A stretch of DNA of 64,000 bases, taken from contig NC_092087.1 of NCBI RefSeq assembly GCF_045679555.1, forward strand, positions 85,773,331 to 85,837,330. The letters are read 5' to 3'. A program made the translations under genes and the position numbers. Within the stretch, counting starts at the first letter, position 1, and the number at the start of each line of letters is the position of its first letter. The stretch comes from Salvelinus alpinus. Its lineage: Eukaryota; Chordata; Actinopteri; Salmoniformes; Salmonidae. Under the pieces are notes generated by a model, which was not told the origin of the DNA, did not search any database, and saw nothing but the letters and a program-made list of their open reading frames with translations. Below, in pieces: positions 5,056 through 63,700 of this stretch.

Positions 5056-5059
<4 letters not shown>

Positions 5060-5215
5060 AGAGAACCACCACAGATTCTGGACTGAAGAGAACCACCACA
5101 GACCTGGACTGAAGAGAACCACCACATAACCTGGACTGAAGTCAATCAACACAGAACCTGGGCTGTGGAGAACCATAACAGAAACTGGTCCGAAGAGAAG
5201 AGAACCACCAATGTT
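5056..5215 (+). repeat. Degenerate 27-bp minisatellite at the locus 1 stop codon
   Basis: About five imperfect copies of a unit containing GAAGAGAACCACCACAGA start at the stop codon and run into the 3' UTR. The same unit is expanded to about 25 copies in locus 2 and kept at about four in locus 3. Confidence 0.85.
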
Positions 5216-9189: not shown

Positions 9190-9226
9190 CAGTTGAAGTC
9201 GGAAGTTTACATACACTTAGGTTGGA
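9190..9226. mobile_element. Sleeping-Beauty-type terminal repeat fragment
   Basis: CAGTTGAAGTCGGAAGTTTA and onward is the outer terminal repeat of the Sleeping Beauty group, preceded by TA. It is cut off after about 37 bp by the adjoining LINE. Confidence 0.85.
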
Positions 9227-11627
9227 CACCAACCCCGAAGAAGTTAAAACTTTCCACCTTCTCCACTACTGTCCTGTCGATGTGGATGGAGGGGTGCTCC
9301 CTCTGCTGTCTCCTGAAGTCCACGCTCATCTCCTTTGTTTTGTTGACATTGAGTGAGAAGTTATTTTCCTGACACCACACTCCGGGGGCCCTCACCTCCT
9401 CACTGTAGGCCGCCTCGTTGTTGTTGGTCATCAAGCCTACCACTGTAGTGTCGTCTGCAAACTTGATGATTGAGTTGGAACCGTGCATGGCCACGCAGTC
9501 ATAGGTGAACAGGGAGTACAGGAGAGGGCTGAGAATGCACCCTTGTAGGGCCCCAGTGTTGAGGACCAGCTGGTTGGAGATATTGTTTCCTATCTTCACC
9601 CCCTGGGGGCAGCCCGTCAGAAAGTCCAGGACCCAGTTGCATAGGGGACCCAGGGTCTTAACGATGAGTTTGGAGGGTACTGAGCTGTAGTCAATGAACA
9701 GCATTCTTATGTAGGTATTCTTCTTGTCCAAATGGGATAGGGCAGTGTGCAGTGTGTTGGCGATTGCATCATAAGTGGACCTATTGGGGCGGTAAGCAAA
9801 TTGGAGTGGGTCTAGGTCTATCACCAAGTCAGGTGATATGATACTTGACTAGTTTCTCAAAGCACTTCATGATGACAGAAGTGAGTGCAATGGGGCAATA
9901 GTAATTTAGTTCAGTTACCTTGGCTTTCTTGGGAACAGGAATAATAGTGGCCCTTGAAGCATGTGGGGAGAGCAGACTGGGATAGGGATTGATTGAATAT
10001 GTCCGTAAACACACCAGCCAGCTGGTCTGCGCATTCTCTGAGGACACGGCTAGGGATGCCTTCTGGGCCGGCAGCCTTGCAAGGGTTAACACATTTAAAT
10101 GCTTTACTCACGTCAGCCACGGAGAAGGAGAGCCCACAGTCTATGGTAGCGGGCCATGTTAGTGGCACTGTACTGTCCTCAAAGCGAGCAAAGAAGTTGT
10201 TTAATTTGTCTGGGAGTAAGATATCGGTGTCTACGACAGGGCTGGTTTTCTTTTTGTAATCCGTGATTGACTGTAGACCCTGCCACATACGTCTCGTGTT
10301 TGAGCCGTTGAATTGCGACTCTACTTTGTCCTTATACCGACAGTTTGCTTGTATGATTGCCTTGCGGAGGGAATAGCTGCACTGTTTGTATTCGGTCATG
10401 TTTCCGGTCGCCTTGCCATGGTTAAAAGCGGTGGTTCGCGCTTTGAGTGTTGCAAGAATTCTGCCATCAATCCACTGTTTCTGGTTAGGAAACGTTTTAT
10501 TAGTCACAGTGGGTACGACATCTCTGATGCACTTGCTAATAAACTCGCTCACCGAGTCAGCCACTACATCAATGTTATTGTCTGATGCTATCCGGAACAT
10601 ATCCCAGTCCACGTGATCGAAGCAATCTTGAAGCATAGAATCCGACTGGTCAGACCAGCGTTGAATAGACCTGAGTATGGGCGTTTCTGGTTTTAGTTTC
10701 TGTCTATATTCTGGGAGCAACAAAATAGAGTCATGGTCAGATTTGCCGAAGGCAGGGCGGGGGAGGGTTTTGTATGCATCACGGAAGTTAGAGTAGCAGT
10801 GATCCAGAATGCTACCAGCTCGAGTCACGCAGTCGATATGCTGATAAAATTTAGGAAGGCTTGTTATCAGGTTAGCTTTGTTAAAATCCCCAGCTACAAT
10901 AAATGCAGCCTTGGGATGTATGGTTTCCAGTTTGAAGTTCTTTCAGGGCCGACGAGGTAATTGCTTGGGGGGCTATACACAGCTGTGATTATATTCTAAG
11001 AGAATTCTCTTGGAAGATAATGCTGTCGGAATTTGATTTGAAGGAATTCTAGGTCAGGTGAACAGAAGGACTTCTTATCAGAGACATGTTTGTATTTGTC
11101 GGCACGATGCATGAAGAAACCGGGTTTCTGTACCGACTCTGACAACGTATCCATAGTGAGCCATGTTTCCGTGAAACAGAGAATGTTACAACCTCTGATG
11201 TCTCTCTGGAAGGCAACTCGTGCCCAAATTTCGTCCACCTTGTTGTCTAGAGATTGGACATTGGCGAGTAATATGGTCGGAAGCGGTGGATGGTGTGCTC
11301 GCCTTCTGAGTCTGACCAGTAGGCCGCTCCGTCTGCCTCTCCTGCGGCGACCGCATTGTTTTGGGTCGGCCTCTGGGATAAGATCCGATGTCAGGGTGGA
11401 GTTCCGAACAAGGGATCCGCTTCGGGAAAGACGTATTCCTGGTCGTATTGTTGGTAAGTTGACGTCGCTTTTATATCTAATAGTTCTTCCTGGCTGTATG
11501 TAATAACACTTGAGATTTTCTGGGCTAACAATGTAAGAAATAATACATGAAAAAACAAAGAACTGCATCGTTTTCTAAGGACCTGAAGCGAGGTGACCAT
11601 CTCTGTCGGCGCTATCTTGTGTCGACG
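9227..11627 (-). mobile_element. LINE with endonuclease and reverse transcriptase remnants
   Basis: Minus strand. About 11000-11400 encodes an APE-endonuclease start (LLANVQSLDNKVDEI, CILCFTETWLT-like). About 9911-10828 encodes the linker and N-terminal RT region. About 9207-9827 encodes RT motifs including [14 protein letters not shown] and the catalytic FADDTTVVG. Several frame breaks separate these pieces, so it is dead. The RT C-terminus and 3' end are missing at 9227. It belongs to the same family as 44470-46570. It lies in the intron before the first C2 exon of locus 2. Confidence 0.85.
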
Positions 11628-12197: not shown

Positions 12198-13497
12198 ATG
12201 TTGTGTTGGAGATGGATCCTACATCTGTGTCAGAGAGGGAGAATGTGACACTGACGTGTAGAATCACATGTACACTGGACCCCATCACAGCCTACAGTTG
12301 GTATAAGAATGGACAGCCTATACCAAACAGCAACACCTACTCTCCTGTCTATATCCTATTCTCAGTCAGCAGTGAGGATACAGGCAGATACTCCTGTGCT
12401 GTAGAAGGCCATGAGGATCTCCCCTCTGCTGAAGAGACTCTCACCGTCAGATGTAAGTACATAGGGTTTAAATCATTAGCTTGGTATATTAACATTGTAA
12501 TTATTTTGTATCTATCTCCAGTTGTATTCTTTATGAAGTAACATCATGTTGGAACCTCAGAGCATGTGCTTTACATTTTTCTCAATGTAATTATTTTAAT
12601 ATATCTTGTAAAATGCGCTGATGTACTTTATTTGCTAAATCTAATGTCATCAGAAAGCCAAGATAATATATACCATAACCAAGATGTTAATGTCTTTTTA
12701 ATGGTCCTTTACCAGATGGCCCAAAGAACACCTCGGTGTCAGTCAGTCCCTCTGGTGAAATAGTGGAGGGCAGTTCAGTGACTCTGACCTGCAGCAGTGA
12801 CGCCAACCCACCTGTGCAGAATTACACCTGGTACAAGAACATGTCGATGAGACATTCTGGACAGAGATACACCATCCATAACATCAGCTCTGAGGAAAGA
12901 GAGGGATACTACTGCGAGGCCCTGAACATTATAGGGAGAGAGACTATCCCTGTCCATATTAATGTTATATGTAAGTATGACACATTCTGTCTATTTTTGT
13001 GCTCTGTAACTTTACAGATTTCATTCTGACATCATGCATTTATAACCTCATGACCCTGCAGCAGTGTTTCCCTGGTTTCCTGTGGTGGGGGTGGGGGCTG
13101 TCCTGACTGCTGGAGCTCTTCTACTCACCATCTACTGCACACTGAAGAGGTGAGCCAGCCATTTACATCTACTGTATTAGTAACATATCAACTTCCACTA
13201 GAGGTCAGTAGAGAGCAGAACACACTCTGTCCCTCATTACAGGAGATCCACAGGAGGAAGTGATGCAACAGCAGACACACAGGTAATAATGTCAACAACC
13301 AAAGTTATTTCAATCCCAATACCACAGACAGTAAGCAAATTAATTTACATGAAAATGTAGAGGGAGTGGTTCGTAAAGTGCTAATTCAGAGTGTCTTCTT
13401 TCAGATTAAGGGACTCCCCTGTGACACAGCCCCTCAGAAAGATGCTGAGCCCTCCGATTATGAGAACTGGAGCGAACCACCACAGAACCTGGACTGA
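12198..13497 (+). pseudogene. CD22-like receptor, locus 2 (C2-C2-TM-tail; no leader or V exon found)
   Basis: Exons: C2 12198-12452, C2 12716-12970, transmembrane 13062-13149, linker 13243-13282 and last exon 13405-13497. Joined, they stay open for about 243 residues and are very close to the locus 1 exons. The leader and V exons are absent; Tc1 and LINE sequence stands where they should be. The 81-bp tyrosine exon is also absent. The last exon has a compensated set of small indels near its start. The usual stop after DYEN has become TGG, adding WSEPPQNLD before a new TGA at 13495-13497. It could still contribute exons to a read-through transcript, but alone it has no way to enter the secretory pathway, hence the pseudogene call. 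Confidence 0.7.
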
Positions 13498-14140
13498 AGA
13501 GAACCACCACAGAACCTGGACTGAAGAGAACCACCACAGAACCTGGATTGAAAAGAACCACCACAGTACCTGGACTGAAGAGAACCACCACAGAACCTGA
13601 CTGAAGAGTACAACCACAGAACCTGGACTGAAGAGAACCACCACAGAACCTGACTGAAGAGAACCACCACAGAGCCTGACTGAAGAGTACCACCACAGAA
13701 CCTGGACTGAAGAGAACCACAACAGAACCTGACTGAAGAGAACCACCACAGAACCTGGACTGTAGAGAACCACCACAGAACCTGGACTGAAGAGAACCAC
13801 AACAGAACCTGACTGAAGAGAACCACCACAGAACCTGGACTGTAGAGAACCACCACAGAACCTGACTGAAGAGAACCACAACAGAACCTGGACTGAAGAG
13901 TACCACCACAGAACCTGGACTGAAGAGAACCACAACAGAACCTGACTGAAGAGAACCACCACAGAACCTGGACTGTAGAGTACCACCACAGAACCTGGAC
14001 TGAAGAGAACCACAACAGAACCTGACTGAAGAGAACCACCACAGAACCTGGACTGTAGAGAACCACCACAGAACCTGACTGAAGAGAACCACCACAGAAC
14101 CTGGACTGAAGAGAACCACAACAGAACCTGGACTGAAGAG
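13470..14140 (+). repeat. 27/25-bp minisatellite downstream of the locus 2 stop
   Basis: About 25 tandem copies of a unit around GAAGAGAACCACCACAGAAC. Two main lengths alternate: 27 bp with CCTGGACT and 25 bp with CCTGACT. The first copies overlap the end of the coding sequence. Long minus-strand open frames here are by-products of a unit length divisible by three. Confidence 0.95.
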
Positions 14141-23158: not shown

Positions 23159-26100
23159 GGTGGGAGATGCAACAATGGCCTTGAGAACAGCAGGAAGTGT
23201 GTTGGTGGTCTTTCTCTGGTCTGTAGCAGGTATGGTCTCATTCTTATATTTTAGTTGCTCTGTTTAATAATCTACAGACATTTATTAAAGGTTAAGAATC
23301 ATAATGATATTCTGGTGTGTTTTGTTAGGCGTCTCCACTTCACTTAAATAGTTTTCTGTGGTTTCCATTCACACTCAACTCAGCAACTATAGCAACAAAG
23401 TGGAGACAAACCCTACTGTCAGTGGCAACCAATAGACCTTGTCCTAATTCTGATACCATTGTGTTTTGTGACTGTGTTTCAGTGGTACTGGGTCAGAATG
23501 GCTGGAGAGTGAAATACACCACTCAGAGTATCTGTGCCTTGAAGGTGTCATCAGTGGATCTGTCCTGTTCTTACACATATCCCAGAGGTCATACAGTCAC
23601 AACAACCTTCTGGTTCACAAAAATTTTAAATCTGAGAGACGACCCAGACTACAAAGGTCGTATGACGTACCGTAGCGATAGGATGAATGGCCACACTCTG
23701 ACAATCACAGACCTGAGAGAGAGTGACTCAGCTGAGTACAAGTTCAAATTTATAACAGATCAGACTGAAGGGAAGTATACTGGTGATCCTGGAGTCACCT
23801 TGTCTGTTACAGGTACAGTGACATTATATATAGTATTGATCTGTTTAATCACTCTGTCTGTTACAGGTACAGTGATATTATATATAGTATTGATCTGTTT
23901 AATCACTCTGTCTGTTACAGGTACAGTGATATTATATATAGTGTTGATCTGTTTAATCACTCTGTCTGTTACAGTGATATTATATATAGTGTTGATCTGT
24001 TTAAACACTCTGTCTGTTACAGGTACAGGGATATTATATATAGTGTTGATCTGTTTAATCACTATGTCTGTTACAGGTACAGTGATATTATATATAGTAT
24101 TGATCTGTTTAATCACTCTGTCTGTTACAGGTACAGTGATATTATATATAGTATTGATCTGTTTAATCACTCTGTCTGTTACAGGTACAGTGATATTATA
24201 TATAGTATTGATCTGTTTAATCACTCTGTCTGTTACAGGTACAGTGATAATATATATAGTGTTGATCTGTTTAATCACTCTGTCTGTTACAGGTACAGTG
24301 ATATTATATATAGTGTTGATCTGTTTAAACACTCTGTCTGTTACAGGTACAGTGATATTATATATAGTGTTGATCTGTTTAATCACTATGTCTGTTACAG
24401 GTACAGTGATATTATATATAGTATTGATCTGTTTAATCACTCTGTCTGTTACAGGTACAGTGATATTATATATAGTATTGATCTGTTTAATCACTCTGTC
24501 TGTTACAGGTACAGTGATATTATATATAGTATTGATCTGTTTAATCACTCTGTCTGTTACAGGTACAGTGATATTATATATAGTATTGATCTGTTTAATC
24601 ACTCTGTCTGTTACAGGTACAGTGATATTATATATAGTGTTGATCTGTTTAAACACTCTGTCTGTTACAGGTACAGTGATATTATATATAGTATTGATCT
24701 GTTTAATCACTCTGTCTGTTACAGGTACAGTGATAATATATATAGTGTTGATCTGTTTAATCACTCTGTCTGTTACAGGTACAGTGATATTATATATAGT
24801 ATTGATCTGTTTAATCACTCTGTCTGTTACAGTGATATTATATATAGTGTTGATCTGTTTAAACACTCTGTCTGTTACAGGTAAAGTGATATTATATATA
24901 GTATTGATCTGTTTAATCACTCTGTCTGTTACAGGTACAGTGATATTATATATAGTATTGATCTGTTTAATCACTCTGTCTGTTACAGTGATATTATATA
25001 TAGTGTTGATCTGTTTAATCACTCTGTCTGTTACAGGTAAAGTGATATTATATATAGTATTGATCTGTTTAATCACTCTGTCTGTTACAGGTACAGTGAT
25101 ATTATATATAGTATTGATCTGTTTAATCACTCTGTCTGTTACAGTGATATTATATATAGTGTTGATCTGTTTAAACACTCTGTCTGTTACAGGTACAGTG
25201 ATATTATATATAGTGTTGATCTGTTTAATCACTCTGTCTGTTACAGGTACAGTGATATTATATATAGTATTGATCTGTTTAATCACTCTGTCTGTTACAG
25301 GTACATTGATATTATATATAGTGTTGATCTGTTTAATTGGTTCAGGAAAACTGTCTTGATTTGTATTTAAATAATATAAAAATGAACGTATGGTATAACA
25401 GAAATGTCTGAATTGATGATTTGAGAATGTCCACTCCTGCCTCATTTGAACTAGACAACAGGTCATTGATGGTTTTAATGTTGTTATCTACTCCAGACCT
25501 GCAGGTGAAGGTGACCACTACATGGTGGTCAACGACACTGACCTGTAGCACCACCTGTACTCTGACTGGTAACCCCACCTACATCTGGTACAGGAACAGT
25601 AAGATTGTACAAGAGGACTCCTCCCCCTCATACTCAGTCTACTTTAAAACTGAAGACAGATTCTACTGTGCTGTAAAAGGCATCAATTCTCCTGCAGTGT
25701 GTGAGTGTGACTAATAGACTTTATAAAGTCTATCAAAATCATCCAATACATCATAGGTCAGTGTTCATGTGCAGTGAAACAGACATGAAATAGGGCTCCT
25801 ATTTCCTTTAGATTAATGGTTGTTGATTTTACAGTTGTAAATACTTACACCATTTGAAAAATGTACTTGTGTTTCAGCTGTTGAGGGTCACAGTTATTTC
25901 CATGTGACTTACACCAATCAGAGTGTCTGTACCTTGAAGGGGTCATCAGTGGACATACCCTGCTCTTATACATTTCCCAGTGGTCATACAGTCTCTGAAA
26001 CAAAATGGTACACAAAAGGAAAACTTGACGAGGCGCCTCAAATCCTGAACCCGGGGTATGGAGGTCGTGTGGAGTACCTTGGAAATATGCAGAGTGACTC

Positions 26101-28026
26101 CACCCTGAGAATCACAGACCTGAGAGAGGAGGATTCAGCTGAGTATAAGTTTAGACTCAGAACAGATCAGACAACCTGGGAGCCCACCTTCCCAGGAACA
26201 ACTCTGACTGTCACAGGTAACACTGCACGTCACATCCTATCAATACTGCAAATGATTACTTAATGATATACTCAGTGTTTTAATCCTCTTTCATTTAGGT
26301 CTGCAGGTGAAGGTGACTCCTGCAACTGTGACAGAGGGACAGAAGGTGACACTGACCTGTAGCACCACCTGTACTCTGACTGACAACCCCAACCCCACCT
26401 ACATCTGGTACAAGAATGGACATGTAACCACCCAATCTAACAGTCTGTTCCTAAACCCAGTCAGCAGTGAGGATACAGGCAGATACTCCTGTGCTGTAGA
26501 AGGCCATGAGGATCTCTACTCTGCTGAAGAGACTCTCACTGTCACATGTGAGTATGTGTGATACATCTCCAGTTGTATTCTTTTAGTAACGTCTTCTCTT
26601 ATCTATTCTATCTATTATTTCAATCTATGTCCAAGTTCCATGAATGTACTCATCTCATTACTGTAGTTAACTACAAGTACTTCACAAACACTGTATTGTT
26701 ACATTATTGTCTAAGTTATACATATTTATATTAATATTTCATTTATTTCAATCACTAGTCCAAGTTCCATGATGCTCCTCATGTAAAGCTCTATGTATGA
26801 ACAATGTGTTGTTACATATTGTCTACCAGATGGCCCAAAGAACACCTCAGTGTCAGTCAGTCCCTCTGGTGAAATAGTGGAGGGCAGTTCAGTGACTCTG
26901 ACCTGCAGCAGTGATGCCAACCCACCTGTGGACAAATACACCTGGTACAAGAAGAATGTAACCTCACCAAAAGCATCAGGACAGAGTTACAGCATCACTA
27001 ACATCATCTCTGAGGACAGAGGAGAATATTACTGTGAGGCCCAGAATGGAAGAGGATCTATGAACTCTACAGCTCTGATGATCATTGTAGCAGGTAAAGT
27101 TAATCTTCAAAACTTCAATGCAAAACTACATGATTCAATCTCATGTTAATATTTTGGATTTGGCTTATTTTACTTGGGTTTTAATTCAACATTGAGTGTA
27201 CAAAACATTAAGAACACTTGTTCTTTCCATGACATAGACAGACTGACCAGGTGAAGCTTTGATCCCCTATCACTTGCTAAATCCACTTCAATCAGTGTGG
27301 ATGAAGGGGGGGAGACAGGTTTTACCATATTATATTTGTTTTTAATTTATTAGAACATGCCATGTACTCATATCATCCATATTTTATTGTAGGGAAACAG
27401 ACCTCAGTTCTGACTGCAGCTTTAGGAATCATAGTGGTTGTTCTGGTTCTCATCCTCTGTCTCTCTGGACTCATGTGGTTCAGGTGACATACTTTTTTTT
27501 ATTTCACCCCTCGCACTCTGATTTGTTATGAATGCATTAATATATTAATTTATTAATTAATGTGCAAAACTTTATTTGTAACATGTCAACTTCCACTAGA
27601 GGTCACTAGAGAGCATAACTCTCTCTGTTCCTCTTTACAGGAGATCCACAGGAGGAAGTGATGCCACAGCAGACACACAGGTGATTCTATCAGTTACACC
27701 TCCACCTTCACACCTGATGACATGAATTTACTATGTCACGACAGTCTCTCTCATACTATTTTCACTGTTACCGTGACAACTCTCTCTCTCTCTCCACAGA
27801 TTGTCCATCCTGATCCTAACAGTGACACCTACACATCTCTGAACATGAAGACCAGGTCACCAGACTATGACACCCTGGCAGTGAGTTTGTGTGTGTGTTT
27901 GTGTCCATAAAAATGTTATAGAGTAGTGTGTAATGTGTTCACTTTGTTTTCTTTCAGAATGTAAGGGATTCCCCTAGTGAAACAGTCCCTCAGATAGATG
28001 CTGAGCCCTCAGATTATGAGAACTGA
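23159..28026 (+). CDS. CD22/Siglec-like IgSF receptor, locus 3 (complete from leader to stop)
   Basis: Exons: leader 23159-23229 (ATG 23175; MALRTAGSVLVVFLWSVA), V 23483-23812, C2 25497-25700, V 25878-26216, C2 26299-26547, C2 26830-27093, TM 27393-27483, linker 27641-27680, tyrosine exon 27800-27880 and last exon 27958-28026. The sum from ATG to stop is 1722 nt, 573 residues, with no internal stop. The second V has the Siglec-like EYKFRLRT; the first has lysine where arginine is usual (EYKFKFIT). The tail has YTSLNMKTRSPDYDTL, two YxxL motifs eight residues apart, then DYEN at the C-terminus, a Grb2-type YxN site as in mammalian CD22. The membrane segment is uncharged. The first V exon is followed by a 54-bp array that repeats its own donor site. 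It is probably a leukocyte surface receptor; the ligand is unknown. Confidence 0.85.
23813..25340 (+). repeat. 54-bp tandem array multiplying a splice donor, about 28 units
   Basis: Each unit repeats the exon-intron junction of the V exon (CTCTGTCTGTTACAG|GTACAG) plus intron sequence. Every full unit therefore has a pyrimidine-rich CAG acceptor-like site directly joined to a GTACAG donor-like site. The length of 54 is a multiple of three and the frame stays open: one unit reads GTVILYIVLICLITLSVT. At least four units lack six bases (GGTACA), which removes the donor but keeps the frame. The open frame ends in TGA just after the array (25359). Confidence 0.95.
27190..27330. mobile_element. Short salmonid repeat fragment in a locus 3 intron
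   Basis: GAGTGTACAAAACATTAAGA, then CTTTCCATGACATAGACAGA. This is a high-copy salmonid sequence with Tc1-like ends as I recall it. No coding capacity. Confidence 0.5.
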
Positions 28027-28136
28027 AGAGAACCACCACAGAACATGGACTGAAGAGAACCACCACAGAACCTGGACTGAAGAGAACCACCACAGATCCT
28101 GGACTGAAGAGAACCACCACAGAACCTGGATGAAGA
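28020..28136 (+). repeat. 27-bp minisatellite at the locus 3 stop codon, about four copies
   Basis: Same unit as in loci 1 and 2 (GAAGAGAACCACCACAGA). The first copy overlaps the AAC-TGA end of the coding sequence. Confidence 0.9.
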
Positions 28137-29100
28137 GCTTCAGCACCAAACCAAAGCTAGGATTTACACCTCTATTCTCCTGCTATCATATTGCTATCAT
28201 ATCTAGAAGGCTTTCCAGACAATGAGCTCTAACTTTTAGAAAATTCTGTGATTATTTTATTTTCTTGTAAAGTTAAGGAAAGGGGAATACCTAGTCAGTT
28301 GTACAACTGAATGCATTCAACTGAAATGTGTCTTCCACATTTAACCCAACCCCTCTGAATCAGGGAGGTGCGGGGGGCTGCCATTATCGACATCCACGTC
28401 TTCGGCGCCCGATGAACAGTGGGTTAACTGCCTTGTTCAGGGGCAGAACGACATATTTTTATAATGATGCTTATTGGTGTCATATCTAGAAGTTTTTCCT
28501 AAGCTTTAACTTCCAGTAAATGCTGGAGTTGAATTATCTTTCCTTGTAATGATAATTATGTATATTGATGATAAATAAGACAGATTATGCTTCTGCTCTT
28601 TTTCTATGAGATTTGACCATTTGTAGATTTTCTGTAACACAAAAAGTCCACTTTTCTGTTTGCTCTCTGTAGATTAATATTATGTTTCTGTCTTTCTCTA
28701 TGGGATTTTGCCATTTCCAGATTTTAATAACAAATATAGACCTACATTTCTCAGTGACTAATGTGGATAATATTGATAACAGCATTTTAATATTTCTAGC
28801 TCTTGAACCAGGTTTCTCCTGATGTGTTTAATAATGACTTACTTTGTTTTGCTGTCAGACATTATTGCGCTTTTTATATTAAGTAATATCATATTGTTCA
28901 GTGTCATGTCACTTGTTTCATTATCAAATGATTAATTATGACCTATTTTAGATGCATTAAATACATGTTCACATTTGGAGATTTTACAGTGTTGTTCAAT
29001 GTAAATACAGTATAGGCGCCATGTTGTAAATGAGCTCAAAGTTCAAGATAAGAAGTACACTGATTAGTTGATCAACTATTAATACATTGAATCATATCTA
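28137..29100 (+). other. 3' UTR of locus 3 with a SINE-like insertion
   Basis: A receptor-type 3' UTR, homologous to 14150-14430 plus 19345-19800. Between 28266 and 28460 it contains a dispersed salmonid repeat (CCTAGTCAGTTGTACAACTG, then GGTGCGGGGGGCTGCC). The site aligned with AATAAA in other copies reads GATAAG (about 29046). Confidence 0.6.
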
Positions 29101-43784: not shown

Positions 43785-44469
43785 GCAAGGTGATTTGTAG
43801 ATCAGTCAGTCAGTCAGTCAGTATTTAACCATCACACGTCACAGTTTTGATTAATTATATTCCAGCTACCATTACAATGAGCCTCTCCTCCTATATATCT
43901 ACACACCAGCCTCCTCTGTTGTACACAAGGTCCAACAGTGTAACAGAATACGATAGTGGCATATTTTACTACAATAGACAATAGTGTGTGTGTGCTTAAA
44001 TGTGACTTTGTCAAGTAAACAGTTTAGTTTTTCACTAGGTTATCTGATGTATTTCCAGTTTGTTATGTTGTTATTAACCCAACATTAATGAGGACATTAT
44101 TATTAGGATGGTGCAGTAATGTTGAGATGCCAGTAGGGAGAACTCTAGTCTAGAACACTGGAACCTTCAGTGTTACTTTGGATGCTGCTGATGAGGAGTG
44201 ATGGTCATGGGTGTTTAAATGGAATGGGTTCTAATTGAATGACATCATGGAACTTTGACCTGAATACAGAACTCAGAAGGACAATGCAACACATTCTAAG
44301 AAATTGTTAACGTTATAAATAGTGAAGAGGTCTTGCAGTTGTGTCAGAAATCACCTAGCAACAACACCAAGTCCTCTATAGTCGACATGTTGTTTAAATG
44401 GTTCTCTGTGTAGTCAAAATATCACATATCCTTTAACATATCCAATATCACAATTTCACATAGCCTTTA
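43785..44469 (+). other. Upstream flank of locus 4
   Basis: A (TCAG)n short repeat near 43806. 44100-44400 is homologous to 21820-21990 and to 55320-55450 (AATGACATCATGGAACTTTG; GTAGGGAGA.CTCTAGTCTAG). This is the duplicated region that precedes receptor promoters. The promoter and leader exon themselves are not recognised before the LINE. Confidence 0.5.
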
Positions 44470-46570
44470 ACAAGGCTAATCTGAAAACAAATCTCCCTAA
44501 ATTCTATCAGCATATCGATTGTGCTACCAGGGCTGGTAAAACCCTGGATCATTGTTATTCTAACTTCCGCGACGCATATAAGGCCCTCCCCCTCCCTCCT
44601 TTTGGAAAAGCTGACCACGACTCCATTTTGTTGCTTCCAGCCTACAAACAGAAACTAAAACAAGAAGCTCCAGCGCTCAGGTCTTTTCATCGCTGGTCCG
44701 ACCAATCTGACTCTACGCTTCAAGACTGCTTCGATCACGTGGATTGGGATATGTTCCGCATTGCGTCCAACAACAACATTGACGAATACGCTGAATCGGT
44801 CAGCGAGTTCATTAGAAAGTGCATCGGCGACATAATACCCACAGCAACGATTAAAACATTTCCAAACCAGAAACCGTGGATTGATGGCAGCATTCGCGTG
44901 AAACTGAAAGCGCGAACCACTGCTTTTAACCAGGGCAAGGTGATCGGAAACATGACCGAATACAAACAGTGTAGCTATTCCCTCCGCAAGGCAATCAAAC
45001 AAGCTAAGTGCTAGTATAGAGACAAAGTAGAGTCGCAATTCAACAGCTCAGACACAAGAGGTATGTGGCAGGGTCTACAGTCAATCACGGATTACAAAAA
45101 GAAAACCAGCCCCGTCGCGGACAAGGATGTCTTTCTCCCAGACAGACTAAATAACTTTTTTGCTCGCTTTGAGGACAATACAGTGCCACTGACACGGCCC
45201 GCTACCAAAACCTGCTTCACTGCAGCCGAGGTGAGTAAAACATTTAAACGTGTTAACCCTCGCAGGGCTGCAGGTCCAGCCGGCATTCCAGCCGCGTCCT
45301 CAGAGCATGCGCAGACCAGCTGGCTGGTGTGTTTACGGACATATTCAATCAGCCTTATCCCAGTCTGCTGTTCCCACATGCTTCAAGAGGGCCACCATTG
45401 TTCCTGTTCCCAAGAAAGCTAAGGTAACTGAGCTAAACGACTACCGCCCCGTAGCACTCACTTCCGTCATCATGAAGTGCTTTGAGAGACTAGTCAAGGA
45501 CCATATCATCTCCACCCTACCTGACAACCTAGACCCACTCCAATTTGCTTACCGACCCAATAGGTAAACAGACGACGCAATCGCAACCACAAGAGGAATA
45601 CCTATGTGAGAATGCTGTTCATTGACTACAGCTCAGCATTTAACACCATAGTACCCTCCAAACTCGTCATCAAGCTCGAGACCCTGGGTCTCGACCCCGC
45701 CCTGTGCAACTGGGTACTGGACTTCCTGACGGGCCGCCCCCAGGTGGTGAGGGTAGGTAACAATATCTCCACCCCGCTGATCCTCAACACTGGGGCCCCA
45801 CAAGGGTGCGTTCTGAGCCCTCTCCTGTACTCCCTGTTCACCCACGACTGCGTGGCCATGCACGCCTCCAACTCAATCATCAAGTTTGCGGACGAAACTA
45901 CAGTGGTAGGCTTGATTACCAACAACAACGAGACGGCCTACAGGGAGGAGGTGAGGGCCCTCGGAGTGTGGTGTCAGGAAAATAACCTCACACTCACACT
46001 CAACGTCAACAAAACAAAGGAGATGATTGTGGACTTAAGGAAACAGCAGAGGATGCACCCCCCTATCCACATCGACGGGACAGTAGTGGAGAGGGTAGTA
46101 AGTTTTAAGTTCCTCTGTGTACACATCACGGACAAACTGAATTGGTCCACCCACACAGACAGCGTTGTGACACAGACAGCGTTGTTCAACCTCTGGAGGC
46201 TGAAGAAATTCGGCTTGTCACCAAAAGCACTCACAAACTTCTACAGATGCACAATCGAGAGCATCCTGTTGGGCTGTATCACCGCCTGGTACGGGGCAAC
46301 TGCTCCGCCCACAACCGTAAGGCTCTCCAGAGGGTAGTGAGGTCTGCACAACGCATCACCGGGGGCAAACTACCTGCCCTCCAGGACACCTACACCAGCC
46401 GATATCACAGGAAGGCCATAAAGATCATCAAAGACAACTACCACCCGAGCCACTGCCTGTTCACCCCGCTATCATCGAGAAGGCGAGGTCAGTACAGGTG
46501 CATCAAAGCAGGGACCGAGAGATTGAAAAACAACTTCTTGCCAAAACTACAGACGATTATTAAACTACAT
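44470..46570 (+). mobile_element. LINE, 5' truncated, with reverse transcriptase
   Basis: Same family as 9227-11627. It starts in the linker (LDHCYSNFRDAYKALP), then RT motifs at 45250-46337 ([56 protein letters not shown]), then the thumb and C-terminus to about 46570. The catalytic motif reads FADE where FADD is usual. There are several stops and frame changes. The 3' end abuts receptor V-exon sequence, so it inserted in or beside that exon. Confidence 0.85.
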
Positions 46571-46755
46571 ACACTAACAACCTTTTGGTTCACAAAAAAA
46601 TTATGCTGTCTGGAATCCTGTGAGTCTGAGTGATGACCCAGACTACAAAGGTTGTGTTACGTAGCATAGAGATGTGAAGAATGGCCACACCCTGACAATC
46701 ACAGACCTGAGAGAGAGTGACTCAGCTACGTACAAGTTCATCTTATTTAAACTTC

Positions 46756-56427: not shown

Positions 56428-57380
56428 GGTTTAGGAGTAGTATTAACATGAGACACAGTGATGGTGGGTTGTGTTTAGGAGTAGTATTAACATGAGATAC
56501 AGTGATGGTGGGTTGTGTTTAGGAGTAGTATTAACATGAGACACAGTGATGGTGGGTTGTGTTTAGGAGTAGTATTAACATGAGATACAGTGATGGTGGG
56601 TTGTGTTTGGGAGTAGTATTAACATGAGACACAGTGATGGTGGGTTGTGTATAGGAGTAGTATTAACATGAGACACAGTGATGGTGGGTTGTGTTTAGGA
56701 GTAGTATTAACATGAGACACAGTGATGGTGGGTTGTGTTTAGGAGTAGTATTAACATGAGACACAGTGATGGTGGGTTGTGTTTAGGATTAGTATTAACA
56801 TGAGACACAGTGATGGTGGGTTGTGTTTGGGAGTAGTATTAACATGAGACAGTGATGGTGTGTTGTGTTTAGGAGTAGTATTAACATGAGACACAGTGAT
56901 GGTGGGATGTGTTTAGGAGTAGTATTAACATGAGACAGTGATGGTGGGTTGTGTTTAGGAGTAGTATTAACATGAGACACAGTGATGGTGGGATGTGTTT
57001 AGGAGTAGTATTGACATGAGACACAGTGGCAGTGGATTCTGTTTAGGAGTAGTATTAACATGAGACACAGTGATGGTGGGCTGTGTTTAGGAGTAGTATT
57101 AACATGAGACACAGTGACTTTGGGTTGTGTTTAGGAGTAGTATTAACATGAGACACAGTGATGGAGGGTTGTGTTTAGGAGTAGTATTAACATGAGACAC
57201 AGTGATGGTGGGTTGTGTTTAGGAGTAGTATTAACATGAGACACAGTGATGGTGGGTTGTGTTTAGGAGTAGTATTAACATGAGACACAGTGATGGTGGG
57301 TTGTGTTTAGGAGTAGTATTGACATGAGACACAGTGGCAGTGGGTTGTGTTTAGGAGTAGTATTAACATGAGACACAGTA
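56428..57380 (+). repeat. 44-bp minisatellite, left arm, about 21 copies
   Basis: The unit contains TTAGGAGTAGTATTAACATG and AGACACAGTGATGGTGGG. Some units are 42 bp (GAGACAGTG) and two carry GACATGAGACACAGTGGCAG. Confidence 0.95.
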
Positions 57381-60649: not shown

Positions 60650-60749
60650 NNNNNNNNNNNNNNNNNNNNNNNNNNNNNNNNNNNNNNNNNNNNNNNNNNN
60701 NNNNNNNNNNNNNNNNNNNNNNNNNNNNNNNNNNNNNNNNNNNNNNNNN
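60650..60749. other. Assembly gap of 100 N
   Basis: Exactly 100 unknown bases, the usual placeholder for a gap of unknown size. It lies between an intron of locus 5 and the minisatellite of the right arm. Confidence 0.99.
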
Positions 60750-63700
60750 CCCACCATCACTGTGTCTCATGTTAATACTGCTCCTAAACACAACCCACCA
60801 TCACTGTGTCTCATGTCAATACTACTCCTAAACACAACCCACCATCACTGTGTCTCATGTTAATACTACTCCTAAACACAACCCACCATCACTGTGTCTC
60901 ATGTTAATACTACTCCTAAACACAACCCACCATCACTGTGTCTCATGTTAATACTACTCCTAAACACAACCCACCATCACTGTGTCTCATGTTAATACTA
61001 CTCCTAAACACAACACAAAGTCACTGTGTCTCATGTTAATACTACTCCTAAACACAACCCACCATCACTGCCATGTTAATACTACTCCTAAACACAACAC
61101 AAAGTCACTGTGTCTCATGTTAATACTACTCCTAAACACAACCCACCATCACTGTCATGTTAATACTACTCCTAAACACAACCCACCATCACTGTGTCTC
61201 ATGTTAATACTACTCCTAAACACAACCCACCATCACTGAGTCTCATGTTAATACTACTCCTAAACACAACCCACCATCACTGTGTCTCATGTTAATACTA
61301 CTCCTAAACACAACACAAAGTCACTGTGTCTCATGTTAATACTACTCCTAAACACAACCCACCATCACTGTGTCTCATGTTAATACTACTCCTAAACACA
61401 ACCCACCATCACTGTGTCTCATGTTAATACTACTCCTAAACACAACCCACCATCACTGTGTCTAATGTTAATACTACTCCTAAACACAACCCAACGTTAC
61501 TGTGTCTCATGTTAATACTACTCCTAAACACAACCCACAATCACTGTGTCTCATGTTAATACTACTCCTAAATACAACCCACCATCACTGTGTCTCATGT
61601 TAATACTACTCCTAAACACAACCCACCATCACTGTGTCTCATGTTAATACTACTCCTAAACACAACCCACCGTCACTGTGTCTCATGTTAATACTACTCC
61701 TAAACACAACCCACCACCACTGTGTCTCATGTTAATACCACTCCTAAACACAACGTACCATCACTGTGTCTCATGTTAATACTACTCCTAAACACAACCC
61801 AAAGTCACTGTGTCTCATGTTAATACCACTCCTAAACACAACCCACCATCACTGTGTCTCATGTTAATACTACTCCTAAACACAACCCACCATCACTGTG
61901 TCTCATGTAAATACTACTCCTAAACAGAACCCACCATCACTGTGTCTCATATAAATACATCTCCTAAACCTCTTATGAAACATCAACTCAATCACTCTTA
62001 CTCTATCTGTCACTTTTACTTTAGGGCCATTTTCAAAATGTCTCCACAACAATCTGTTGCTCTCAGAGCTCTTAAAATAGCATGTACACGTCTTTATGTG
62101 AAACCACATGTACAATGTACATCCCGTCTTCTCTAGCATACAATATAGCTCAGTATTTGTCAAGGGTGCCAATAATTTTGGTCGTGACTGTATATCTAAC
62201 AATCAGATTAATATGTCAAAATACATGTATACACACACACACGCACACACACGCACACACACGCGCACACGCACACACACACACACACACAGTTATACTT
62301 GACCCTGTTATACTTTGACAGTGAACATGACCCTATTGAATGGAGATCTGGGTGTTACTGGCAAACTCTACTGATCATGTTTTAAACATGTAAATGAATA
62401 AACTGAACTAAACTAAACACATGAAACCACAGTCCAGGGTCAGTATTCACAAAGTGTATCAGAGTAGGAGAGCTGATCTGGGATCAGTTTAGCCTTTTAG
62501 ATCATAATTATACGGACCGTCTGAGACAATTTATGAACACAGGCCCTGATGTAACAACCAAAACACAGTTCAAAATAAACCAACAAGTATGTCATGTGAT
62601 GTATGGCTAAAAACATCAAAAACTATATTCCAAGATATCGTCAAGTGTACTTACAGAGTGAAGTGAAGGGGAAGGTCTTGTACAGTGAATCAACTTACTG
62701 TCACTGTGTGGAAACAAGAAGTAGTCTACTGTAAGAGTTAGTAGAAGTAGGCGTAGTCTAAGTGTGAGTTCTGTGGTTGACACGTTTTAAAAGTAGCCTA
62801 GTCAGAGCATTAACATGCAGGAACAGCATGTCACATAAGGGATGTTACTCTATCTAAATAGAAAATGGTCTAAAGTCAGAATACTGGAGTTACATTTCTT
62901 TATTGGAGGAGTGGACCTACATGTTTTACAAGAGACACAATGTGACCCATTCCCATCACTCCTCATCAGCTGGTACTGAAGGTTCCAGAACAGATGAAAG
63001 GGGAGTATCTTTGGTTCCAGTGTTCTAGTCCAGTGTTCTAGACTAGAGCTCTCCCTACTGACATCTCAACATTACTGCAGCTTCCAGGCTTCATATGTCC
63101 CTACTAGTCCAATGAAAATATACAATATAGAAGGTAAACTAACATTCGAAAATGAAAAAAATGTATATAGAGCAAACCAGGCATGCACGTAAAAGTAATG
63201 TTATTGGGACTTACGTTGAACTGGAGTTTGGACTCAGTTAATTAGTGATCTCAGCTAGCTTGTTAGCTACATGAAGCTGGTGTTATTCAGCGATAAACAA
63301 GTATTTTTGTGCATCACACAGCTACTTTGAAAGTACTGGATTGTGAACAATATGATGTGCTGCCACAGAATTACAGCAAAACCCCATAGTTAGCTAGTGA
63401 GCTAGCTAGTTAGCTAACTTTGAGCTATCAACATTAGCTAGCTAGAAACACCAGACAAGAGTGAGCTGTCATCATGCCAAGGCCAAAGCAAGCTGCTATG
63501 AGTTTTCATTGTGTTCTTGTGTGAAAGAGATGTCTTCAGCTCACTAATCTTCAGAACAACGGACCCAAAGTGAACCCTGACATGCATATAACTAAGTCTG
63601 TCTGTTTGTCTGGGATTATTGTGTCCTATTGTGTCTGAGTGATGCGTGTTTTTTGAAAATGACAATGATTAATCTTTCATGTAATTGTTTATTGCTGCTT

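Follow-up and report, generated by a model that had tools for sequence, protein, structure and literature searches.

The array described here lies in a CD22/Siglec-like gene, within a window of 64,000 nt (the whole stretch of DNA analysed) that covers 85.77–85.84 Mb of its contig in the 2.37-Gb genome of Salvelinus alpinus. Ten exons (23175–28026), whose edges we placed by hand from homology and splice consensus, join into one open frame encoding, in order, a signal peptide, V, C2, V, C2 and Ig domains, a transmembrane segment and a tail that carries tyrosine motifs and closes with YEN-stop. In window coordinates, the gene and its array comprise the following features:

23175–23229, forward strand: signal-peptide exon, with ATG; donor CAG/GTATGG, joined in frame to V1
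23483–23812, forward strand: V exon 1 (V1), with an open frame (phase 1) after the acceptor tttcag; its 3′ end supplies the exonic portion of the repeat
23813–23818, forward strand: native (first) V1 donor GTACAG, matching the single-junction paralogs L051–L055 in position and sequence
23813–25300, forward strand: tandem array of 28 complete units that each run as a cassette from donor to acceptor; 24 measure 54 bp and 4, which lack a donor, 48 bp
24881–24886 and 25037–25042, forward strand: variant donors GTAAAG (7.91 against 4.91 on an approximate matrix)
25301–25336, forward strand: terminal unit, intron part only, with the last donor GTACAT, followed by unique intron; 196 nt from the C2a acceptor
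25497–25700, forward strand: C2 exon a (C2a), next after V1; acceptor tactccag, donor GTGAGT
25878–26216, forward strand: V exon 2 (V2), with the best stretches of Pfam V-set and Ig_CD22
26299–26547, forward strand: C2 exon b (C2b), with Pfam Ig families
26830–27093, forward strand: Ig exon, with the best stretches of Pfam Ig_3 and Ig_2
27393–27483, forward strand: transmembrane exon (19-residue hydropathy 3.28)
27641–27680, 27800–27880 and 27958–28026, forward strand: three tail exons with tyrosine motifs; stop codon at 28024–28026, placed from the translation

What kind of receptor is this? In Pfam, the whole gene model reaches 63.1 bits for Ig_CD22 against a cut-off of 27 and also matches V-set and other Ig families; V1 by itself, alone or with the array read through, scores 25.5 bits for Ig_CD22, just below that cut-off. 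Comparison of the host protein with the structure database ranks chains of Fc receptor-like 5, CD22 d6–d7 and CEA highest. A canonical ITIM has S, I, V or L two residues before the tyrosine, and, judged by eye, the tail motifs DTYTSL and PDYDTL have none of these at that position. The combination of Ig_CD22, V-set and further Ig domains, a transmembrane segment and a tyrosine tail resembles that of the teleost CD22/Siglec-like receptors, and CD22 is expressed in salmonid head kidney (PMC7226832). Among 40 matches scored out of 240 candidates, V1 recurs at 85.3–89.2 Mb of the same contig.

The window holds other repeats. A 27-bp minisatellite at 28022–28137 begins at the stop codon of the host gene and carries TGA in each unit; it also occurs at 13466–14140 and 5057–5199. 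Two 44-bp arrays at 56429–57379 and 60750–61969 share one unit but run in opposite directions, and the second starts right after a 100-N gap (60650–60749). Reverse-transcriptase-like open frames, recognized by eye in the ORF list, lie in pieces at 9210–11574 (reverse strand) and 44382–46630 (forward strand) and are probably LINE remnants.

At V1, TRF reports a period of 54 with 28.9 copies, 94% matches and a score of 2717 at 23801–25337. Cut at the junctions, the array including its terminal unit runs from 23813 to 25336 and repeats the boundary between V exon and intron: each unit consists of the last 18 bp of exon and the first 36 bp of intron, so that the array straddles the exon–intron boundary. 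An earlier sequence-only reading had proposed about 28 units multiplying the V-exon donor, and 28 complete units plus the terminal one are indeed present. It had also proposed that an acceptor-like CAG joins a donor in every unit. This holds at 25 of the 29 junctions, where CAG is followed by GT (22 GTACAG, 2 GTAAAG, 1 GTACAT), and fails at the other four, the starts of the 48-bp units (23975, 24833, 24989 and 25145), where GTACAG is lost and no donor remains. The V1 frame (phase 1) stays open across every unit and stops after GSGKLS, the ORF ending at 25356; the remaining reading frames of the array are also open over long stretches in the ORF list. Since an open unit whose length is a multiple of three copies its own openness, the long open frame amounts to roughly a single event. 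The 28-copy array itself is no chance pattern. It brings the V1–C2a intron of the window gene to 1684 nt.

By sequence, each 54-nt unit is a potential intron, from GT to AG, and equally a potential phase 1-1 exon, from AG to GT. It contains a pyrimidine tract and yUnAy branch-point-like sites 18 and 27 nt upstream of AG, with the next donor 54 nt downstream in most units. On approximate matrices, the 28 array acceptors score 5.8–8.2, against 5.4 for the native C2a acceptor and 1.7–15.1 for the remaining acceptors of the gene. Most array donors share the V1 donor score of 4.91, the lowest of the gene's nine, with the two GTAAAG sites reaching 7.91, yet by computed pairing with U1 the V1 donor (−9.6) ranks first among them. 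Any splice within the array would restore CAG/GT, except before the four donorless units, and would shift the length by whole units; in principle, the array would therefore be self-erasing.

How did such an array arise? We compared 49 loci, namely the window and L009–L056. Because L048–L056 were chosen by their match to the array unit, loci with an array or a single junction are over-represented in this set. Six loci (L051–L056) have a single junction with the same intron subtype and a V1–C2a intron of 197–202 nt. Nine loci carry arrays of 2 to 28 complete units:

window: 28 complete units plus the terminal one
L009 and L010: 8+1 each
L011: 6+1
L048: 5+1
L049: 15 complete units and the last one, counted from a 100-N gap onward
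L050: 2+1
L021: 2 units, then an insert
L016: 2 units, then another intron subtype

In six of the nine (window, L009, L010, L011, L048 and L049) the last donor lies 196–200 nt from the C2a acceptor, from which we conclude that the array grew by whole units inserted into a 0.2-kb intron. The array of L050 reaches into the acceptor region and leaves 64 nt, whereas in L016 the distance, behind a foreign intron, is about 190 nt; in L021 the end point was set by hand, so that the figure represents no measured intron. In array loci outside the window with a mapped C2a end, the V1–C2a intron measures 172–1103 nt. A tree of V1 from 46 of the 49 loci (L031, L039 and L042, with V matches below 280 nt, were left out, and L040 is represented by a different V exon) unites all array loci except L016 in one clade of 8 rows with support of 99/87; its neighbour is the single-junction clade (6 rows, 100/98), and the node joining them has 90/84. 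With eight of the nine array loci in a single clade, one 54-bp duplication was expanded. L016 falls elsewhere in the tree and has a frameshifted V1 and another intron subtype after its array, which looks like a recombinant. By eye, the flanks of the duplication share about one base at the join; a long flanking repeat was thus unnecessary.

Two observations concern the assembly of the cluster. L009 and L010 are near-identical, 0.7 Mb apart and in opposite orientation, with small clustered indels in V1 and C2a of L010, which is perhaps an unpolished duplicate. In addition, matches at the contig end (130.945–130.954 Mb) mirror those at ~88.65 Mb (88.647–88.657) and 89.0 Mb in spacing and score, and perhaps represent a misplaced or duplicated piece of the cluster.

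The sequence-only reading had further held that the reading frame survives expansion and that any extension is a multiple of 18 residues. In the window the units are in frame, as they are in L050, L021 and L016. The family at large departs from this, with the frame broken or stopped in five of nine arrays (four of eight should L009 and L010 be a single locus that was assembled in duplicate): the first unit of both L009 and L010 is 52 nt long, L049 has one 52-nt and L048 one 56-nt unit, and an in-frame TAA lies inside the L011 array. In-frame extension is, consequently, not conserved. Nor are extensions always multiples of 18 residues, given that 48-bp units add 16. The added residues are hydrophobic, as had been stated: the unit peptide has a mean Kyte-Doolittle value of 2.43 and resembles a membrane segment that would be placed outside the membrane. 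The 54-bp units of the window, 24 in number, show seven different substitutions, six nonsynonymous and one synonymous, where 118 of 162 possible changes in the unit are nonsynonymous. L009 is readable from V1 to the tail (its signal exon lies outside the piece of that locus analysed), and its donors past the first unit would shift the frame.

Other splice sites in the cluster have multiplied as well. In 12 loci (L018 3474–3716, L042 1794–2120 and L057–L066), the acceptor of a tail exon is repeated in 2–5 copies spaced 73–91 nt apart, at multiples of three (75, 78, 81, 90) and other distances (73, 77, 79, 83, 91). This search scored 40 of 53 candidates, with ten regions picked for their array matches in addition to L018 and L042; in L018, L042 and L063 the last match, 348–470 nt farther, reads as a separate exon (SVHPDPNSDTYTPLNM) and was left uncounted. 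L058, L059 and L066 are near-identical and L061 and L062 nearly so, and the 12 loci are hence not independent events. Of the 33 copies that precede the full-length one (or, in L063, the separate exon), 28 run into SVRPD-stop or SVCPD-stop within six codons, before the tyrosine motif; the other five, from L061, L062 and L065, stay open for all 27 codons inspected. At the V2 donor begins a 35-bp array (L027 1518–3801, 65 copies; L013 3073–4213, 1140 bp) whose unit copies the opening bases of the intron (GGTAATACTACACTTACAG...) and almost no exon; it contains the donor-like GGTAATA, and TGGTAA has 56 occurrences in L027 against 24 in L013. Splice-site arrays thus persist where splicing to the added sites would in most cases shorten the tail, a pattern more in keeping with tolerance than with design.

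Are minisatellites drawn to splice sites here? Three of 25 families (85 TRF rows) touch a mapped exon edge, namely the 54-bp family at the V1 donor, the 35-bp family at the V2 donor and the 75/77-bp family at the tail-exon acceptor, and for 13 of the 25 a row lies no more than 300 bp from the mapped exon span; edges were mapped with the ten exons of one gene and can be missed. Within the compact window gene, 28.5% of 54-nt placements span a junction, so an array on a junction is not improbable, and set against this share the three of 25 families represent no excess, which led us to reject a targeting of splice sites. What is unusual is the length the array has reached and the completeness of its cassettes. 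A retrocopy of the spliced V1–C2a junction, which would have been an indirect trace of splicing, was likewise sought and rejected: none is present among the 48 matches listed (40 of 277 candidates scored), each of which is one-sided and extends at most ~10 nt past the join.

Together, these observations make it probable that we are looking at a young minisatellite at the V1 junction which the CD22/Siglec-like gene tolerates and which is mostly spliced out. In the ancestor of one subclade, a single 54-bp tandem duplication (the last 18 bp of the exon with the first 36 bp of the intron) would have been followed by slippage or unequal exchange, yielding 2 to 28 complete units per gene. Removal could proceed piecewise or as a single splice from the first donor, and the expected mature mRNA would join V1 to C2a with mostly zero or few units. 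Tolerance would follow from each unit being a full cassette of donor, branch-point-like site, pyrimidine tract and acceptor, and piecewise removal would be workable because every internal splice puts CAG next to GT again, so that a donor remains available. This reading of a tolerated minisatellite draws on the single-junction sister clade with its 197–202-nt introns beside one array clade, the growth by whole units, the frame breaks in five of nine arrays, the readability of L009 despite its 52-nt first unit, the 6:1 ratio of nonsynonymous to synonymous unit variants, array acceptors that are no worse than the C2a acceptor, and the presence in the cluster of two more arrays at splice sites, of which one, if used, would mostly truncate the protein. 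While the anatomy, the single origin of the main clade and the frame breaks among paralogs can be read directly from the loci, the mechanism of duplication, the RNA outcome and neutrality are what we infer from them. Several points count against tolerance. As a gauge of constraint on the host gene, dN/dS between the window gene and L009 is 0.88 (bootstrap 0.50–1.79, 34.6% of bootstraps at or above 1), with a range that includes 1. The donor half of the unit is more variable than the acceptor half (12/26 against 4/28 positions; p 0.016, post hoc), and fewer variable positions in the latter could hint at acceptor use. The donor at V1 and in the array is the weakest of nine by matrix, yet the best in U1 pairing. 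Finally, where identical donors compete, the intron-proximal one is often favoured, and such a preference would retain units in the mRNA.

The same observations bear on other readings. If different donors were used, the array might generate receptors of variable length, as the sequence-only reading suggested, and these would be usefully extended by 16 or 18 hydrophobic residues per unit. The window array, in frame across all 28 units with 25 donors present, would suit this, as would L050, L021 and L016 with their 54-nt units only; however, with five of nine arrays frame-broken or stopped, the first L009 unit at 52 nt, unit variants of 6:1 and an added peptide that would resemble a membrane segment outside the membrane, a selected, frame-keeping generator of length isoforms is not supported, and we regard useful isoforms as very unlikely. 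For stepwise removal of units, with AG/GT as ratchet points and the 54-nt unit as ratchet exon, the AG/GT, the pyrimidine tract, yUnAy at 18 and 27 nt and a donor 54 nt downstream are all in place. Ratchet points need a short exon, as in the 51-nt microexons of Ubx (PMC8605326), and a human intron of 56 nt is spliced, with SPF45 (PMC8363638). This recursive ladder is nonetheless unlikely, as ratchet points are typically found in long introns whereas this one measures 1.7 kb, and one-step removal explains the same product. A more elaborate version, which we hold to be unlikely as well, would turn ~25 AG/GT cassettes, each a 54-nt intron or exon, into a working device ratcheted by the spliceosome, with occasional stops giving receptors with added membrane-like segments and the acceptor array of the sister genes acting as a mirror device that chooses between a tyrosine and a truncated tail. 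If true, each splice would restore the donor and its local sequence, the intron could grow by whole units and the mRNA would stay clean.

The array might also be a damaging load that disturbs splicing, cuts output and marks genes heading for loss. A dN/dS near 1, the frameshifted V1 of L016, the small indels in V1 and C2a of L010 and the state of L011, where V2 and C2b find no match and the AG preceding the Ig exon is gone, would all be compatible with decay, but V1 through tail can be read in both the window gene and L009 and the L010 indels may be sequencing errors, so that we consider a load quite unlikely. It is most improbable that the array or its length is an assembly error: a 100-N gap inside the L049 array, another beside a 44-bp array in the window and the possibility that a single locus was assembled twice, as L009 and L010, point that way, but the array recurs at nine loci with differing unit numbers and interspersed unit variants; only exact copy numbers are in doubt. 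A tolerated junction minisatellite thus remains our preferred account, ordinary in its origin and unusual in its outcome.

Several known systems come close. Variable minisatellites at exon–intron boundaries of recent human paralogs can form new introns (De Grassi and Ciccarelli 2009, PMC2812944); like ours, they lie across the boundary and differ in number among recent paralogs. Units in that study average 30 bp, are repeated 4 times and have transcript support, in contrast to units of 54 bp in up to 28 copies here, nearly all with AG/GT. Introns can be gained by tandem duplication of AGGT (PMC4974935), and fission yeast has new introns made of 24-nt repeats (PMC3629103). In both that process and the present array, tandem copies carry AGGT and supply GT and AG; here, however, an existing exon–intron junction rather than an exonic segment has been multiplied, and any new introns are potential ones. 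Fly ratchet points share the juxtaposed acceptor and donor, the short following exon and the regeneration of a donor at each step, but occur a few per long intron (PMC8605326), as opposed to 25 within 1.5 kb. For the receptor family, neither "splice" nor "tandem" appears even once in the searched text of the teleost CD22 study (PMC7226832), and no fish receptor with such an array was found in the literature searched, where long result lists were judged by their top entries and subscription papers mostly lay outside. With more and longer units, AG/GT nearly throughout, a copy-number series among paralogs and further donor and acceptor arrays, the locus differs from these known kinds.

For RNA studies in this cluster, an array-internal splice would yield a junction identical to that of a shorter genomic array; it would thus be invisible to short reads and mimic allelic length variation. 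At the same time, the paralogs form a natural copy-number series of a near-identical splice junction, with 1, 3, 6, 7, 9, at least 16 and 29 junctions, which allows competition between 5′ splice sites, exon definition and recursive splicing to be studied without engineering. Together with the arrays at a second donor and at an acceptor, this series indicates that, in the CD22/Siglec-like cluster of this fish, splice sites can be multiplied on either side of an exon and persist.
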